Source: Bacilli bacterium (GTDB lineage: Bacteria; Bacillota_I; Bacilli_A; RF39; UBA660). From it: a stretch of DNA of 41,909 nucleotides. The position numbers and the translations under genes were made by a program. Positions 15,675 to 40,343 of this stretch are shown here, piece by piece. The notes below the pieces were generated by a model. It had not been told where the DNA came from. It was given only the letters and a program-made list of their open reading frames with translations, and searched no databases. Numbering within the stretch: the first letter of the stretch is position 1; each line of letters begins with the position of its first letter. The stretch is taken from assembly GCA_017406955.1 (NCBI GenBank), contig JAFQXM010000002.1, forward strand, positions 1 to 41,909, written 5' to 3'.

Positions 15675-16736
15675 TTAATATTCTATTTTACTTTTTGGTA
15701 CTTCAATTACTGGTCTTACTCCAATATTTTGACCATCTTTATCATTTTTTAATGGATATACATTTCTTCCCATACCATCTACTATTAGATGTTTATTCAT
15801 TGATTTAGGTGCAGTAGAAACTGTTTCTAACCAATAGCCTTTAGTCTCTTCATTATCTTTACCTGAATCATATGTTGTATATATAACAAAGTATTCACAA
15901 TATCCTTTTGCTTGTCCAAGTGGAGTATCTCCTGTTATTGATGAATTATATTTAGCAATAGTGGGACAAGCTGCTTTTATTTCATCATATGTTGGTAATC
16001 GTGCTGCCCTATTTGTATATGGACATGTCACTCTTTCAACTCCATCTTCATCTTTTATTCTTCTAGTTTCATTAGTAAGTTTAACATTTTTCCATTGTGA
16101 TGTTGTTGGTAACTGATTGACCGCTACATTTGGACAGGTTTCTTGAGCAGCAGTCAAAGTCGCTGTAGTATTATTACTATAAGCAAAACCTGATTTTTTA
16201 TTAGAATCTATAAATTTCCCTCCTGACACATTAGCAAAAAATATTAATACTGCATAATCACTATCTGATTCTAAATCTGTTACATAAAAGAATAACTCTA
16301 ATTTGTTTCTATCTCCATTTGGATCATCTTGAAAATTACCATCTCCATTGACATCGCAAACAAAAACATCTCCAGATTTAAAAACTCCCGGTGTTCCTAC
16401 TTGTCCATATGTTATATTAGCATCTACAGCATAGCCACCTAATTTAGTAGGATCATGCCTACAGTTATAACAATGATTATCATAACATGATGCTTGTTTT
16501 AAAAGTGGGCACTTGCCTACTAACAACTTATTAGTACCTGATACTCTTCTACATATAGGATCATCTTTATCATAGTATTGAAGTAAATCTTTTTTTATAT
16601 CATCTGATAAGTTTTTGGTATTACTTCTAGTTGTTCCTAACATACTCATTATAGATAGCACTATCATAAACATCATTAATATAAGAGTATATAGCATAGT
16701 AGATACTGCAAAACCTCTATTATTTACTTTTTTCAT
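15675..16736 (-). CDS. Membrane-anchored surface protein with prepilin-like N-terminus and a shared C-terminal domain
   Basis: 353 residues. The N-terminus resembles a type III signal: a short basic leader ending in NNRGF, then a hydrophobic helix (about residues 9-33), but Glu at position +5 of the mature form is missing, so processing by a prepilin peptidase is doubtful. The exported part (from about 60) has two Cys-rich stretches, a Ca-binding-like CDVNGDGNF, FFYVTDLESDSDYAVLI, QLPTTSQWKNV, ARLPTYDEI and ends GVRPVIEVPKSKIEY. This domain recurs at 23901-25277 and 25298-26248. RLPT and GVRP suggest a C-type-lectin/FGE-like fold, which is inference. It follows rsmD by 25 nt. Confidence 0.75.
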   Translation of the reverse strand: MKKVNNRGFAVSTMLYTLILMMFMIVLSIMSMLGTTRSNTKNLSDDIKKDLLQYYDKDDPICRRVSGTNKLLVGKCPLLKQASCYDNHCYNCRHDPTKLGGYAVDANITYGQVGTPGVFKSGDVFVCDVNGDGNFQDDPNGDRNKLELFFYVTDLESDSDYAVLIFFANVSGGKFIDSNKKSGFAYSNNTTATLTAAQETCPNVAVNQLPTTSQWKNVKLTNETRRIKDEDGVERVTCPYTNRAARLPTYDEIKAACPTIAKYNSSITGDTPLGQAKGYCEYFVIYTTYDSGKDNEETKGYWLETVSTAPKSMNKHLIVDGMGRNVYPLKNDKDGQNIGVRPVIEVPKSKIEY

Positions 16737-23874: not shown

Positions 23875-23902
23875 AATAAAAAATAGTTCAATTGAACTAT
23901 TT
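23875..23902 (-). terminator. Terminator of the TasA/SipW operon
   Basis: A 22-nt perfect palindrome (23881-23902) followed on the minus strand by TTTTTTATT. It contains the stop codon of the gene at 23901-25277. Confidence 0.85.
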
Positions 23903-25277
23903 AATAACTTATTTTAGATTTTGGTACTTCTATTACTGGATGAACACCATACCAATTATTGTTGGCATTAGAATGACCAATTAATCTTCCCCATCCAGAT
24001 ATATAAAATACTTCTGCACTATTTCCTGAATATACATTTTCAAAAGTCACAGCACTTCGATTATAACCTGTAGTTGAAAAATAGGTAAATTGCCCATTTT
24101 CTAATAAATAATTACATTTATTATATATAATTCCATATTGAGCCCCTCCTGTTATATTAGAAATGTTTGCCATTGTATCATTACAAGCTCTTTCAATCTC
24201 TTGAGTAGTTACCATTCTTGCTGCATATCCACTATAGTTTATTGTTCCATATTCATTTCCTACTTCATCTTTTAATACTCTCGATGTATTACTAAGATTA
24301 ACATTTTTCCATTGTGAAGTAGTAGGAAGTTGATTTTTTATATCCGCTGGACCATTTACTCTAGGGGTATCATTAGATTCATATTGAAAATATGAATATG
24401 CATTTGGTTCTCCATTAGCAGTAGCATTATAGTATATAAGTACTGCATAATCACTAGAATTATCTAAATCTGTCATATAATAAAATCTTTCAGTTTTTGG
24501 GTCATATTTCTTGTCTCCATTAACATCGCAATCAAAGGCATCTCCTGAAGTAAGTGTTCCTGATGTTCCTAAATAACCATATATTATATCTTGCCCAACT
24601 CCTGATACATGAGCTGTACAATGATAATTTATTTCTTTTCTATCACTTCTACCTTGACATATTTCCGTATGTAATGTTTTTGCTCTTTTACAAACTGGAT
24701 GTTTAACTTCTACTTCATTATTAGATTCAATATAACTCATATTAAAAGTTAAATTTAAAGTCTGATCTTCTGTTGGTAGACTACTATTTGGAATATCACC
24801 TTTATATTTTACTTTTACTAATATTTTTTGACTACTACCTGCAGGTAGTAAATCTTTTTCTTTAACTGATATATCAGATGTGTATGTGGCACTATATTCT
24901 ATATAATCTGATTGTTCAGTGGTAATTCCACTATATACTACACTACCTACCATAGCATCTATACTTCCATTATTTACTACATCTACAGTAAATTCATAAT
25001 ATTGTCCTGTTTCTGCAAGTGGAACTTGATAATTAACTATAGTTGAATTATTTGTAATAGAACTAGTTCCTGTACTTATACTTCCCTCTGTTACTTCTAA
25101 ATTTTCAAAGTGTACATCCCAATTATTTTTATATACTGTAGTATAACCATTTACAGATAAAGTACTACTTAAATAGGAATATCCAATCCCCATAAAAACA
25201 GACACAAAAAACAAAGCAATTAAATAAACAGATTGCTTTTTAGTATTCATAAGCTTTTTGCGTCTTATTTTTAACAT
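23901..25277 (-). CDS. Secreted TasA-like domain fused to the shared C-terminal surface domain
   Basis: 458 residues in two modules. The N-terminus has a SipW-type signal (hydrophobic helix about 18-36 ending GIGYSYLSSTLSVNG), then a beta-sandwich domain (WDVHFENLEVTEG through FNMSYIES, about 53-188) that aligns with the stand-alone TasA-like protein at 28293-28832. From about residue 195 comes the domain shared with 15675-16736 and 25298-26248: CKRAKTLHTE, FDCDVNGDKKYD, RFYYMTDLDNSSDYAVLI, QLPTTSQWKNV, AARMVTTQEIERAC, ending VHPVIEVPKSKISY. The combination suggests a fibre-incorporated adhesin or tip protein (inference). GGGGTG precedes the ATG. Last gene of the operon. Confidence 0.8.
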   Translation of the reverse strand: MLKIRRKKLMNTKKQSVYLIALFFVSVFMGIGYSYLSSTLSVNGYTTVYKNNWDVHFENLEVTEGSISTGTSSITNNSTIVNYQVPLAETGQYYEFTVDVVNNGSIDAMVGSVVYSGITTEQSDYIEYSATYTSDISVKEKDLLPAGSSQKILVKVKYKGDIPNSSLPTEDQTLNLTFNMSYIESNNEVEVKHPVCKRAKTLHTEICQGRSDRKEINYHCTAHVSGVGQDIIYGYLGTSGTLTSGDAFDCDVNGDKKYDPKTERFYYMTDLDNSSDYAVLIYYNATANGEPNAYSYFQYESNDTPRVNGPADIKNQLPTTSQWKNVNLSNTSRVLKDEVGNEYGTINYSGYAARMVTTQEIERACNDTMANISNITGGAQYGIIYNKCNYLLENGQFTYFSTTGYNRSAVTFENVYSGNSAEVFYISGWGRLIGHSNANNNWYGVHPVIEVPKSKISY

Positions 25278-25297
25278 AAAATCACCCCTGATTTATA

Positions 25298-26248
25298 TTA
25301 ATAGTCTATTTGACCTTTTTTTACTTCTATTGCTGGTCTTAATCCAAATTGACCAGTAGAATCATTATCATCATAACCCCTACCATAAACTGGATAAGTA
25401 GTACGTCCTCTACCATCCATAACCCAAGCTTTATTATATGTACCTTCTAATGCAGTTGCTGGATAAACATCTTCTAGCCAATATCCTTTACTGTATTTTG
25501 CACTTATGTAATGTGTCCTCTCTGCCAAATATTCACATTTTCCTTTAATGGTTTTACCTTTAGTTACTTGGGCTGTTGGACATGCTTTTGTTAATTCTTT
25601 AAATGTTAATAATCTTGCTGTTCTATAATTACTACCTGCTTTATATTCAAAGTTTTGAACATATACTTTTCCTGTGTCATCTGTTATATTTCTTACAGTA
25701 CTCGCAAGATGTACATTACTCCAATAATCAGTCTCTGGTAACAGCTGTCTTAAATTTATTGGTCCATTTGTGAGTGTGTCATAACCACCACTATATGTAA
25801 AAACTGTATTTTCTGTTACAGCACCCGTGTAACTAGATATATTAGAATAAAAAATTAAAACCGCATAACTATTGTCTGTATCTAAATCTGTTACATAATA
25901 AAATCTTTCATTGGTGGAATTGTATGTACCATCCCCATTTACATCACAATCAAAGGCATCTCCCGCTTGTAAACTATTACCTTGTACACCTAATTTTCCA
26001 AAATTTACCATTGATGAATTTAATGTGTATCCATCATCTCCACATGAATAATGCATAGATTTATCTTCAGCTGTACATGTTTCTGTATGAAGAGATGTAG
26101 CTCTTTTGCATATTATTTCTTTACTAGAAACAGTTGCAGTACCATTAATACTTAAATTACTACTCAAAAAAGCATATCCTATACCTGTAGATAGCATAAT
26201 TACAAAAATAATAATTCCAAAAATTGTAGTTTTGTTCATTCTGATCAC
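25298..26248 (-). CDS. Secreted protein: SipW-type signal followed by the shared C-terminal surface domain
   Basis: 316 residues. A SipW-type signal (helix about 8-26, ending TGIGYAFLSSNLSINGTATV) leads straight into the shared domain without a TasA module: CKRATSLHTETC, FDCDVNGDGTYN, RFYYVTDLDTDNSYAVLI, ARLLTFKELTKAC, GYWLEDVYP, ending FGLRPAIEVKKGQIDY. The FDCDVNGDG stretch resembles a calcium loop and several Cys are conserved with its two relatives. The start is GTG (26246-26248): AGGAGG lies 7 nt before it, and it overlaps the upstream stop as GTGA, whereas the ATG three codons later is 16 nt from AGGAGG. Confidence 0.8.
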   Translation of the reverse strand: MIRMNKTTIFGIIIFVIMLSTGIGYAFLSSNLSINGTATVSSKEIICKRATSLHTETCTAEDKSMHYSCGDDGYTLNSSMVNFGKLGVQGNSLQAGDAFDCDVNGDGTYNSTNERFYYVTDLDTDNSYAVLIFYSNISSYTGAVTENTVFTYSGGYDTLTNGPINLRQLLPETDYWSNVHLASTVRNITDDTGKVYVQNFEYKAGSNYRTARLLTFKELTKACPTAQVTKGKTIKGKCEYLAERTHYISAKYSKGYWLEDVYPATALEGTYNKAWVMDGRGRTTYPVYGRGYDDNDSTGQFGLRPAIEVKKGQIDY

Positions 26249-27102
26249 AAAATTTCCTCCTCAATGTCAGAAGTATCTTCTACTACATTATCTTGTGGTA
26301 CTAATTGTGGCTCATCATTTTCTTCTGTATTAGGAATTTCTACTGATTGTACTTCTTCTTGTGTTGGTAATTCTACTTGTTCTTCATTGGAAAAAGTTTC
26401 TGTTGGTTGTTCTAATTCAATAGGTTGGATGCCTTCTACAGAACTTTCTTCTATATTAGTTATTGGTGTTATTTCTTCTTGCTGGTCCACAATGTTACTA
26501 TTTGCTATAACACTATTGTTGTTATCTACTATATCATTATTAGTAGGTGTATCTACAACAATATTATTATTTATATTATCATTTTCTATATTAATATTTT
26601 GATTTTTACTATCTTTTGCTTGATTAATTAAATCTTCAATATCATTTTTTCTTTCTTTAATTAGTTTTTCTATAGGGGTTTCTACATCTCTTTCTAATTT
26701 TAAAATATAAAGACTGATATCTTGATTATCTAATAATATAAATGTAGTATAGTTTTCTTCTATTTTATAATATATTGGTTTTCTTATTTCTACTGATGCA
26801 TCTATCATATCTTCAATATTTGTTATAATCATTACATTTTTGTTCTCTAAATCTGGTATAGTACTAGTTTCTACTAATATGGAATCATATCTTTTTAATA
26901 TAGTTTTTAAAGTAGAATCATATACTGATTCTTCATCTGTTTTTTTAGATATTGTTAGTATTAATAATAAACCAAATATTAAAACAAATCCTAAAGATAT
27001 CAGAAAATATCCATATAATTTTTTTGAATATAAGTATATAGATACCATCAATATTATTAATAAAATTACTATATAAATTATAGTTTTTAAAGATTTATTC
27101 AT
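26245..27102 (-). CDS. DUF5305-like membrane protein with long acidic tail
   Basis: 285 residues. Two membrane helices (about 7-25 and 30-51) are followed by a cytoplasmic-type domain (about 58-137: RYDSILVETSTIPD, VMIITNIEDMIDASVEIRKPIYY, FILLDNQDISLYIL). This segment resembles the small C-terminal domain of DUF5305 proteins, which in archaea and some Firmicutes are encoded beside SipW-type signal peptidases; the usual large extracellular part is missing. Residues 141-285 are a low-complexity tail, first Asn-rich, then Glu/Pro/Val-rich and strongly acidic. Its place between signal peptidase and substrates suggests a role in export or assembly (inference). GGGGTG precedes the ATG. Confidence 0.7.
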   Translation of the reverse strand: MNKSLKTIIYIVILLIILMVSIYLYSKKLYGYFLISLGFVLIFGLLLILTISKKTDEESVYDSTLKTILKRYDSILVETSTIPDLENKNVMIITNIEDMIDASVEIRKPIYYKIEENYTTFILLDNQDISLYILKLERDVETPIEKLIKERKNDIEDLINQAKDSKNQNINIENDNINNNIVVDTPTNNDIVDNNNSVIANSNIVDQQEEITPITNIEESSVEGIQPIELEQPTETFSNEEQVELPTQEEVQSVEIPNTEENDEPQLVPQDNVVEDTSDIEEEIL

Positions 27103-27114
27103 AGTTTTACACCC

Positions 27115-28263
27115 CTATTTCATCTTTTCATTTAAATATATACTTGGATATGCTACTGCAGGGATCCTTAATATTACTTTTCCTTTTATATCTTTTGCTT
27201 GTAAGTTAATATTATCATTAGTATTATTGGCATCACCTTTAGTACGATAATAAACTTTATTATTAACTTTTTCTATATCAACTAATCTATGTACAGTACT
27301 ACGATTACCAAATTTAAATACAACAACATCTCCTACTTTTACTTCTTTGATATTTTTAATTTTATGTATTAAAACGGCATCACCTTTATTTATTTTAGGT
27401 GTCATAGAAAGTGTTGCGATACCTATAACGTAATATGAGAATGCTCCCGATACTAATGCAACTAATATTAGTATGAAGGATATTATAGGTATATCTATTA
27501 TTCTGAAAGCTGACTTTTGTATTTCATATTCTACGCCATTATAATATTCATTTATAGTTCTTGATGAATATAAATATATTAAGAACGGGAATAATATACC
27601 CATCATTGATGTTAAATATTCTCCATAGTTTGGTACTATTGGTACAATGAATACATACAAATCCATAACTAATCTATATATTAATGCTGGCCTGTAACCT
27701 ACATTTAATGTTAAATAACTCATAACACTACTTTTAACTGTTATTGGAAGTATTATAGTGGTTAATAATTTAAATAAAGATTCTATACTATTTATTTGGC
27801 TTATTCCAATATTAATTGAAAGTTCAAATATTATTAAAACAAATGTAATAAAGAATAAACTTACTTTTCTAGTTGAATTACCATTTAAAAGTATATATCT
27901 TAGTAATTCGATTGATATAATTACAACTATGGTTGCAAAAATATTATTTAATATTGATCCAAAAGTTAACGAGTATGAGTTTTTTAAAAATCCTACAAAC
28001 AATCCTAGTCCATAAGATATAGAAAAGAATATTATTATTTGCAGTATAGTTATAATAGTTACTTGTTTTTTTAATGGATTTGTTTTATTTTTTCTATAGT
28101 CAAAAAATAATATAGAAAAAAATGTTAAAATTACTAAAAAAGTTGCAGTTATAAACTCTGCATATTTTAGAAAGTGTCTAAGCACAAATAATCTATATAA
28201 GAATATATAGATTATTAGTGAAAATAATATAGAAAAATTTTTTAATACTCTATAATTATTCAT
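27115..28263 (-). CDS. sipW: SipW-type signal peptidase I fused to a polytopic membrane domain
   Basis: 382 residues. The last ~100 residues are a family S26B (SipW / ER-type) signal peptidase: catalytic Ser286 in LSMTPKINKGD, GDVVVFKFGN, the general-base His325 in STVHRLV (His, not Lys as in ordinary bacterial LepB), and Asp344 in YYRTKGDANN. The N-terminal ~265 residues hold about eight to nine membrane helices (for example 11-28, 36-54, 68-92, 105-125, 132-153, 163-185, 195-212, 217-233, 256-283) with no family I recognise. Ordinary SipW is about 190 residues with one or two helices. AGGAG precedes the ATG. It lies 29 nt after the TasA-like gene. Confidence 0.85.
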   Translation of the reverse strand: MNNYRVLKNFSILFSLIIYIFLYRLFVLRHFLKYAEFITATFLVILTFFSILFFDYRKNKTNPLKKQVTIITILQIIIFFSISYGLGLFVGFLKNSYSLTFGSILNNIFATIVVIISIELLRYILLNGNSTRKVSLFFITFVLIIFELSINIGISQINSIESLFKLLTTIILPITVKSSVMSYLTLNVGYRPALIYRLVMDLYVFIVPIVPNYGEYLTSMMGILFPFLIYLYSSRTINEYYNGVEYEIQKSAFRIIDIPIISFILILVALVSGAFSYYVIGIATLSMTPKINKGDAVLIHKIKNIKEVKVGDVVVFKFGNRSTVHRLVDIEKVNNKVYYRTKGDANNTNDNINLQAKDIKGKVILRIPAVAYPSIYLNEKMK

Positions 28264-28292
28264 AACTGCTCCTAAGTTTTAGTGTATTGTTT

Positions 28293-28832
28293 TTAATCTT
28301 GAATATAATTCATTGCATAAGTTAAAGTTACATTTTGTGCTGTTGTTGGAAGTTGTGATGCAGTTATATCTGTTTTATATTCTACTCTAACTTTGATTGT
28401 TTTTGATGCCCCTGCAGCTAACTTATCATTAGCAGATACTGTTGTTCCATCACTATAAGTTGCTGTATATGTTGTATATACTTTTTGAGCATCAGATAGT
28501 CCTGCTAATGTTGGATTTGCTGATAATTTTGCAGCTATTGTTCCACCATTTTTTACATTTACAGTAAATTCATAAAAATCTCCTGGTTGATTTAGCGTTA
28601 CTGCATAATTAATATCTAATTTATTAGTTTGAATTGCTGCTGGTGTTGTTGCAGTTGCACTTCCACTTGTTACATTAAGTGTTTCAAAATGCACATCCCA
28701 TGACGGACTACCAATTGTAGTTTGTCCTGTAATATTTAATGCTGCAGTAAGTGCTGCATATCCTATACTAATTCCAACTATTAGTACTAATATTATGGCC
28801 ATGACCATATTTGTCCTTTTATCTTGTTTCAT
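28293..28832 (-). CDS. TasA/CalY-like secreted fibre protein
   Basis: 179 residues. A SipW-type signal (helix about 9-27, ending SIGYAALTAALNITG) is followed by one beta-sandwich domain: SWDVHFETLNVTSG, a central FYEFTVNVKNGGTIAAKL, YTATYSDGTTV, IKVRVEYKTDI and a final TYAMNYIQD. Size, signal type and neighbouring SipW match the TasA/camelysin group, which polymerises into extracellular fibres in biofilms. Polymerisation here is inference. It is the first gene behind a near-consensus promoter, so it should be the most abundant product of the operon. AGGAGG lies 7 nt before the ATG. Confidence 0.85.
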   Translation of the reverse strand: MKQDKRTNMVMAIILVLIVGISIGYAALTAALNITGQTTIGSPSWDVHFETLNVTSGSATATTPAAIQTNKLDINYAVTLNQPGDFYEFTVNVKNGGTIAAKLSANPTLAGLSDAQKVYTTYTATYSDGTTVSANDKLAAGASKTIKVRVEYKTDITASQLPTTAQNVTLTYAMNYIQD

Positions 28833-28858
28833 TTCTAATCCTCCTACCTTATATGTAA

Positions 28859-28887
28859 ATTATAAAATATTTAGAAAATAAAGTCAA
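28859..28887 (-). promoter_or_regulatory. Promoter of the TasA/SipW operon
   Basis: On the minus strand: TTGACT (28882-28887), 17-nt spacer, TATAAT (28859-28864), followed closely by the AGGAGG of the TasA-like gene. The five genes downstream have gaps of 29, 12, -4 and 20 nt and one terminator at the end. Confidence 0.85.
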
Positions 28888-39191: not shown

Positions 39192-39698
39192 TTAATCTAA
39201 ATCGCCAGAACTATCTATAGTACATGAAGCTGAGGTGGTATTTGGATAACTACTAGTACCGTCTTCAATGTTTGCTTTAGTAACTTCTGAAAAGGCTCTT
39301 CCTCTAACTTGTTTATATTTTCCACCTCTAACTTTTGTAGAAGCATATAGTGTGTATGTTGGTCTACCATTAGTAATTACAATTTTAATATATCCTGTAA
39401 TATCATTATTACCTGGATATGGTGAACCACCACCACTATCAAGTAATTTACTTTTTACTTCATCTAAACCAACAGTATAAGTACCACTCTTAGATGAACT
39501 ACAACCTAATTCTCCAGCTGCAAATGCTGTACTTACTGCCTTTCCATATGATTTTAAAGTACTAGCATATGTATTATCTCTAGATTGGGAAATATATTTT
39601 GACACTGCTGGTATTGCTACTAACATTAAAATACCCATTATAACTACAACTGCTAATAATTCAATTAATGTAAATCCTTTTTTGTTTAATTTTTTCAT
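39192..39698 (-). CDS. Type IV prepilin-like protein
   Basis: 168 residues. Classic type III signal: KKLNKKG then FTLIELLAVVVIMGIL, with cleavage expected after Gly8 and Glu at +5 of the mature chain. The hydrophobic N-terminal helix (to about residue 38) is followed by a Ser/Gly/Thr-rich globular part with two Cys, one near residue 61 (GELGCSSS) and one near the C-terminus (SASCTID), that may form a disulfide. Needs a prepilin peptidase and a pilus assembly ATPase, neither of which is in this window. AAGGAGGAATT precedes the ATG; it has its own promoter and terminator. Confidence 0.88.
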   Translation of the reverse strand: MKKLNKKGFTLIELLAVVVIMGILMLVAIPAVSKYISQSRDNTYASTLKSYGKAVSTAFAAGELGCSSSKSGTYTVGLDEVKSKLLDSGGGSPYPGNNDITGYIKIVITNGRPTYTLYASTKVRGGKYKQVRGRAFSEVTKANIEDGTSSYPNTTSASCTIDSSGDLD

Positions 39699-39800: not shown

Positions 39801-40343
39801 TTAATTTAATAGTTTACTTCCACTTTCACAATTAAGTGAATTTTCTTTATTCGTTGCACTTCCTTTGGGTCCACCATTAATTTTCCATGTTGAAGGACCA
39901 GATGCGGTATACACTTGTTCATATATGTATTTTTTAGCATCACTATTATATAAGTTGTCTCTGTCAACTGCAATTATTCCTTTTGAATCATCTTGTATAA
40001 GTGCTACTGCATATTTGTAATTACCACTGACATTTTTTACGAATACCACACTATAGTTACTGTATGGGCTACCATTGGGTGCATTTTTAAATTCTGAATT
40101 ATCTAGATAACTTAATCTAATAATTACACATTTACCATCTGCAGGTTTTTCTATCTTACCTGCTTTTAATTTATATTCTACTGTTGATGCAAACTTCTTA
40201 GCATCTTCTATTAGTGTTCTATCTTTATTACTATTTACTATACCAATAATATTAGGGGTAGCTACTAACATAATAATTCCAAGTATTACAACTACCGCTA
40301 ATAACTCTATTAGGGTAAATCCTTTTTTATTTGTTTTTTTCAT
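39801..40343 (-). CDS. Type IV prepilin-like protein, second copy
   Basis: 180 residues. The signal and first helix (KKTNKKG then FTLIELLAVVVILGIIMLVATP) are nearly identical to the neighbour at 39192-39698, but the globular part is different: EDAKKFASTVEYKLKAGK, CVIIRLSYLDN, YSVVFVKNVSGNYKYAVAL and a C-terminal Cys in SLNCESG. It pairs with CVII as a possible disulfide. This is a second pilin or minor pseudopilin of the same machine. AGGTGATAGT precedes the ATG and an extended -10 lies upstream. Confidence 0.88.
   Translation of the reverse strand: MKKTNKKGFTLIELLAVVVILGIIMLVATPNIIGIVNSNKDRTLIEDAKKFASTVEYKLKAGKIEKPADGKCVIIRLSYLDNSEFKNAPNGSPYSNYSVVFVKNVSGNYKYAVALIQDDSKGIIAVDRDNLYNSDAKKYIYEQVYTASGPSTWKINGGPKGSATNKENSLNCESGSKLLN

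Follow-up and report, generated by a model that had tools for sequence, protein, structure and literature searches.

What is made by a compact five-gene operon in a gut bacterium that encodes a TasA-like secreted protein, a signal peptidase behind a membrane domain, a DUF5305 protein and two secreted proteins carrying a surface domain? The operon lies on the minus strand of a 41,909-nucleotide (nt) stretch of a Bacilli bacterium genome (assembly GCA_017406955.1, contig JAFQXM010000002.1; the whole stretch is referred to as the window). The analysis described here suggests that this conserved gene set probably secretes beta-sandwich proteins and chains them into surface fibres into which adhesin versions are built. 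The best reading of the operon is a variant of the TasA/AbpX kind, that is, a bacterial relative of the archaeal bundling pili and the Bacillus TasA fibres.

Layout and linkage of the operon

A preliminary description of the window had placed five open reading frames (ORFs) between one promoter and one terminator, and all five were found at the coordinates given there, in the same order and with the same intergenic gaps of 29, 12, -4, and 20 nt. A plausible ribosome-binding site precedes every one of the five genes. In the direction of transcription, with protein lengths in amino acids (aa), the features are:

28859-28887, minus strand: putative sigma-70-type promoter, TTGACT-17 nt-TATAAT, called from its 11/12 consensus match only
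28293-28832, minus strand: stand-alone TasA-like secreted subunit, 179 aa, with signal, donor-strand-like segment and beta-sandwich; putative major fibre subunit
27115-28263, minus strand: S26B signal peptidase behind a six-span membrane domain, 382 aa; Ser286, His325, and Asp344, with invariant G87, E119, R122, and P211
26245-27102, minus strand: reduced DUF5305 protein, 285 aa, outer domain missing
25298-26248, minus strand: secreted 316-aa protein with a GTG start, signal and strand segment followed by a DUF6273-like domain; putative cap or tip adhesin
23901-25277, minus strand: fusion adhesin, 458 aa, with signal, TasA-like domain and DUF6273-like surface domain
23875-23902, minus strand: terminator, 9-base-pair stem and U-tract overlapping the last stop codon, from folding against shuffles

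Both flanking signals of the preliminary description were recovered. The promoter ranks among the two best sites within 8 kilobases (kb), and promoter-like sites overall are no more numerous in the sequence than in its shuffles. Therefore, the promoter alone proves little, and the linkage data carry the weight. The terminator (23902-23881 and the U-tract) has a folding energy of -7.7 kcal/mol (z = -3.6), and none of 200 shuffles was equally stable. In addition, a terminator-like stem at 28921-28905 lies just upstream of the operon, between it and a small unrelated gene.

Linkage was counted over 145 genomes of the family, representing 144 genera, with near-threshold DUF5305 matches included; those relatives that carry a name are metagenome genomes from gut and rumen, under the labels Bacilli, Erysipelotrichaceae or Tenericutes. 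The full-length peptidase is present in 65 genomes and DUF5305 in 70, with both in 64, the peptidase alone in 1, DUF5305 alone in 6, and neither in 74 (Fisher, 7e-33), and DUF5305 is encoded directly downstream of 78 of the 87 peptidases. The TasA-like domain and the peptidase occur together in 61 genomes, singly in 4 and 6, and not at all in 74, and in 50 of 56 distinct loci the 1.5 kb upstream of the peptidase contain a TasA-like gene. The genes further downstream vary, and often encode very large proteins with this signal and a TasA-like domain at their N-terminus; two dozen TasA-like domains are present in some genomes, and one genome (G022) contains an open frame of 5479 aa. These counts bear out the gene classes and the tight, recurrent linkage proposed earlier. 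The operon is very likely a conserved functional unit, and likely a secretion-and-processing unit.

The same counts bear on the simplest alternative, in which the operon would hold ordinary co-regulated secreted proteins and a general signal peptidase, with DUF5305 as a bystander. The genome does contain another S26B enzyme and five sortase-like matches, so that several surface systems co-exist in it. However, the near-perfect co-occurrence and order over the 145 genomes disfavour such a loose assembly, and the other S26B enzyme (C5:31618-31923, or L075:4469-5116) has the normal short form and is located elsewhere. Its Ser and His residues are present, and it is possibly the organism's general signal peptidase. 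We consider the bystander explanation very improbable.

The fused signal peptidase and the DUF5305 protein

The N-terminal part of the peptidase consists of six membrane spans without a Pfam match, and a seventh span lies right before the catalytic part. The preliminary description had called this protein a SipW-type peptidase, and the class holds whereas the specific type does not: the model for archaeal-type signal peptidase I (TIGR02228) is passed with 79.6 bits against a cut-off of 51.85, and the SipW equivalog model (NF046067) is matched at 52.5 bits, far below its cut-off of 190. For a profile of 29 relatives, the best solved structures were human SEC11C and SEC11A (E = 3e-22). Ser286, His325, and Asp344 are in register with SEC11C, which places the enzyme in the S26B class, with Ser-His (and Asp) rather than Ser-Lys catalysis. 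In the membrane half, G87, E119, R122, and P211 are invariant among the relatives.

In two relatives of the peptidase (L046:7936-9105 and L048:6735-7940), the catalytic Ser and His are both gone (SM replaced by AI, HR by DR), and these copies were ruled out as active enzymes on the basis of the alignment. Both retain the peptidase membrane domain and a TasA-like neighbour. Because catalytically dead copies have been kept beside a TasA-like gene, the membrane domain is suggested to have a job beyond cutting.

The product of the third gene, previously described as DUF5305-like, passes the PF17231 model (36.7 bits against a gathering cut-off of 29), although the match is limited to the membrane and cytoplasmic part (profile positions 117-210 of 217) and the outer domain is missing. 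The protein has two membrane spans, a conserved cytoplasmic part and a very acidic 145-residue tail (net -32). DUF5305 relatives occur in two forms, a full form of ~350 aa and a reduced form as in the window, and a match to the C-terminal half is typical of the same branch. The domain is rare outside the gut Bacilli family, as judged from 392 genomes drawn across the whole phylum; plasmids contained no DUF5305 matches, and the literature library searched had no paper on DUF5305.

Two further loci pair DUF5305 with a peptidase. The first (L179, G355:C49), in a Bacilli bin, has ~60% G+C and encodes a DUF7504 protein, which we take to be haloarchaeal, and an S26-type peptidase next to a DUF5305 protein of the full form (158 bits); the S26 match is N-terminal only (residues 11-75) and below the cut-off. 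This contig probably comes from a haloarchaeon and was binned with Bacilli by mistake. In the second (L180:5837-7774), the DUF5305 protein is extended by an MshEN domain, and its neighbours are an S26-type peptidase and a pair of small secreted proteins. Secreted proteins beside the two pairs gave no convincing match to the TasA-like profile, and a control (L078) scored alike.

According to the current view, TasA and archaeal bundling pili self-assemble once the signal has been removed. The related-looking subunit examined here travels with fixed partners, the fused peptidase and DUF5305, in ~45% of the sampled uncultured gut family. One speculative proposal, which we hold to be rather unlikely, is that the six-span domain and the DUF5305 protein form a membrane platform for fibre assembly that would hold cleaved subunits and pass them to the growing fibre, as the usher of Gram-negative pili does. 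Consistent with this proposal are the retention of the domain in the dead copies, the invariance of its membrane residues E119 and R122, and its almost constant association with DUF5305. If true, TasA/AbpX-type fibres would for the first time have a known assembly machine.

The beta-sandwich subunit, its candidate donor strand and the putative adhesins

The three secreted proteins of the operon share the signal GIGY-A/S-x-L...L-x-I-x-G, and the pattern noticed earlier proved real, since G24, Y25, A/S26, hydrophobic residues at 28, 32, 34, and 40, G36, and W45 are nearly fixed among 86 relatives. Two segments within this region are of particular concern:

28713-28754, minus strand: codons for residues 27-40 of the 179-aa subunit (ALTAALNITGQTTI), candidate donor strand, conserved and directly after the predicted cleavage site
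26129-26170, minus strand: donor-strand-like segment of the 316-aa protein (FLSSNLSINGTATV), recognised from its sequence

The donor strand of TasA consists of residues 28-38, directly after cleavage (PMC9674648), and the subunit resembles TasA in having a conserved strand-like segment right after the expected cut site. Conservation at this place could also be read in another way, namely that fibres form by amyloid-like or side-by-side packing and that the segment is a recognition site for the peptidase only. The segment does lie directly after the cut site, signal peptidases can read residues past the cut, and a study on TasA processing reports that an aromatic residue at P2' matters (PMC10269814). 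However, the conservation extends to residue 45, far past what a peptidase would read at the cut site, and its hydrophobic positions alternate as in a strand; both related fibres with solved structures, TasA and AbpX, use strand exchange. Assembly by another route is therefore regarded as improbable.

The predicted model of the 179-aa protein is a beta-sandwich with a mean predicted local distance difference test score (pLDDT) of 91.7, and in this monomer the segment after the signal helix forms no strand and has the lowest pLDDT. No curated family model matched the protein. When the profile of the 86 relatives was compared with solved structures, AbpX provided the two best entries (9sj2, E = 7.7e-4; second entry, E = 2.4e-3). 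The match to 9sj2 spans positions 36-177 of 178 and is significant but modest, being reached by the whole 86-relative profile and not by the single 179-aa protein. In a tree of the 86 TasA-like domains, 19 stand-alone subunits, including that of the window, form one starred clade, whereas the fused domains lie in a separate starred clade of 39, in which 29 are labelled fused and a few of the ten labelled alone are fusions cut by locus ends. The earlier distinction between a stand-alone subunit and an adhesin fusion is borne out by these clades, and the two branches would fit an old split between fibre subunit and adhesin carrier.

Both downstream proteins, described earlier as surface-domain substrates, have the signal and the surface domain, whereas only the 458-aa protein has a full TasA-like domain (residues ~1-187, followed by the DUF6273-like surface domain at ~191-458). 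In the 316-aa protein, the TasA-like match covers positions 4-43 only, and the strand segment leads directly into the surface domain with no sandwich between them; such strand-only proteins recur in several lineages. The domain common to the 458-aa and 316-aa proteins is ~250 residues long, contains a conserved GDAFDCDVNGDG motif and ends in GVRPVIEV. DUF6273 (PF19789) was matched by 5 of 23 members of this domain, at E = 0.003 or weaker, and the window's own copies were not among them; among viral proteins, the fusion model has its best fold match in a DUF6273 protein (E = 1.3e-4). The fusion protein had no sequence matches in phage and viral collections, and TasA had none in plasmids. A match of the surface domain to 7cfl (E = 0.004) was discarded as a low-complexity stretch. 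The variable stretch between YWLE and GVRPVIEV suggested a diversity-generating retroelement target, which was rejected: the stretch differs by indels and codons, with no common template, and no RVT_1 reverse transcriptase was matched in the genome (~94% complete).

Elsewhere in the genome there are four more full fusions of the TasA-like and surface domains and one lone TasA-like gene. Because most adhesins are thus encoded away from the operon, the fibre unit is not self-contained as previously proposed, and the second S26B peptidase also lies outside it. One TasA-like gene (L074:6340-6927, on contig C14 of this genome) ends in ...QADETAFDPYCE, where the fusions continue ...CKRATTLHTE; since it stops where they go on, it is probably a fusion adhesin minus its surface domain. 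In a relative, an ORF (L104:1039-2193, G003:C4) opens with a sequence resembling IS30-family transposases and continues into the last part of a TasA-like domain and a surface domain, as if an insertion element had landed in a fusion adhesin gene. The surface domain is also found on other carriers, including an ordinary signal with a C-terminal membrane anchor in the relative G002, and, in the window outside the operon:

15675-16736, minus strand: protein with the same surface domain behind a type-IV-pilin-like N-terminus (NRGFAVSTMLYTLILMM)

This combination implies that one binding domain may be shown by two filament systems. The window also encodes two N_methyl pilin-like proteins, at 39192-39698 and 39801-40343. 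The five sortase-family matches of the genome, four of them above the cut-off, are on contigs C4 and C5. No fibre adhesin ends in a sortase signal.

These features can be combined in a model that we favour, with some reserve, over the others considered: a strand-exchange fibre with built-in adhesins that depends on the signal peptidase, the operon being dedicated to the secretion and assembly of a thin surface fibre with non-covalently joined subunits. Sec would export all three secreted products of the operon (179, 316, and 458 aa) together with the fusions encoded elsewhere. Cutting after GY(A/S) would be the task of the S26B peptidase, which would be anchored in the membrane by its own six-span domain and probably be assisted by DUF5305. 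Cleavage would release the N-terminal strand (L28...L32-x-I34...I40), which would fill the groove of the next beta-sandwich and produce a head-to-tail chain of subunits, as in TasA and archaeal bundling pili. Proteins with both a sandwich and a surface domain would enter the chain as adhesins. The 316-aa protein, lacking a sandwich, would give a strand and be unable to take one, so that it could begin or close a chain without being able to lengthen it; it would sit at one end as initiator or tip cap, as proposed for TapA.

Several results weigh against such a fibre. PF12389 (TasA/CalY, Peptidase_M73) had no match in the whole genome, whereas the control, Bacillus subtilis, did match, and only 5 of the 86 relatives of the domain reach the family, weakly (best E = 0.0011). 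The fold scores of the 179-aa model are middling: the comparison with the TasA fibre 8aur (Z = 6.1 over 122 residues, root-mean-square deviation (rmsd) 3.5) is tied by unrelated immunoglobulin (Ig)-like domains, and Foldseek found no PDB match under E = 0.001 for either the 179-aa or the fusion model. A direct profile comparison with TasA was weak (probability 28%, with a TasA sequence entered by hand). In addition, six genomes have TasA-like domains without a full-length peptidase, and the inactive copies in L046 and L048 imply that cleavage may not be the peptidase's only job. Membership of PF12389, for which a search had been proposed, is thus not supported, whereas it is reasonable that the subunit works like TasA/AbpX. 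Neither of the two findings named beforehand as telling against the proposal, sandwich domains unrelated to TasA/CalY or five genes scattered and never linked, was obtained.

Some of these results would suit single surface adhesins or spacers, anchored by an uncut signal helix or released as monomers, with the sandwich as a stalk and the peptidase as a release switch or quality control, and with no fibre at all. Dead peptidase relatives do occur beside TasA-like genes, very long fusions like the 5479-aa frame could extend well away from the cell with no fibre involved, and many non-fibre Ig-like domains match the fold equally well. Conversely, a short subunit without a binding domain is conserved beside the peptidase and has a clade to itself, something for which a stalk model has no need; the conservation covers the post-cleavage segment and not the helix alone; and the best solved relative is AbpX. 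We judge the absence of a fibre unlikely, and continue to prefer the strand-exchange fibre.

On this preferred reading, the TasA-like domain would serve to attach many lineage-specific surface proteins, with up to two dozen matches per genome, and gut commensals with small genomes may exchange adhesins on a shared fibre with no need for sortases. The reading also gives DUF5305 a testable job and connects bacterial and archaeal fibre systems.

Comparison with known fibre systems

Among the known sipW operons, sipW-bsaABCRSD of Clostridium perfringens resembles that of the window in combining a peptidase and several secreted proteins. Its main secreted protein polymerises, its export needs SipW, and both sipW and bsaA are required for secreted fibres (PMC7395162). 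The C. perfringens operon differs in having its own two-component regulators, and no DUF5305 gene or TasA-domain fusion has been reported for it.

The Bacillus loci tapA-sipW-tasA and sipW-tasA-calY share with the window a dedicated S26B peptidase beside a beta-sandwich subunit and the same kind of cut site, and the 316-aa protein could correspond to TapA as the giver of the first strand (PMC9674648, PMC10903470). Conversely, the window has no match to PF12389 or to the SipW model and no recognised TapA homologue, its peptidase has an extra membrane domain, and DUF5305 and fused adhesins are undescribed for Bacillus in the cited papers.

The archaeal flavour noted in the preliminary description is upheld by AbpX as the best solved relative and by the S26 and DUF5305 pair on the probably haloarchaeal L179. 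L179 and L180 both resemble the operon in that a DUF5305 gene directly adjoins one for an S26-type peptidase and is accompanied by genes for small secreted proteins, whereas the domain order of L179 is unlike that of the window, and the secreted proteins of the two loci have no clear similarity to the TasA-like domain.

The likeness to the archaeal bundling pili (Pyrobaculum calidifontis AbpA; Pyrodictium AbpX, PDB 9sj2 and 9rhp) consists of the profile match and of small secreted beta-sandwich subunits; AbpA (7ueg) aligns to the fusion model with Z = 5.7 and rmsd 7.5. ABPx, ABP, and TasA all form donor-strand-exchanged fibres (PMC11952670), so that chaining by strand exchange is known for the AbpX type and would apply by analogy here. 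Unlike AbpA and AbpX, the system of the window is bacterial; its peptidase is fused to a six-span domain, DUF5305 is its partner, and some of its subunits carry fused adhesins.

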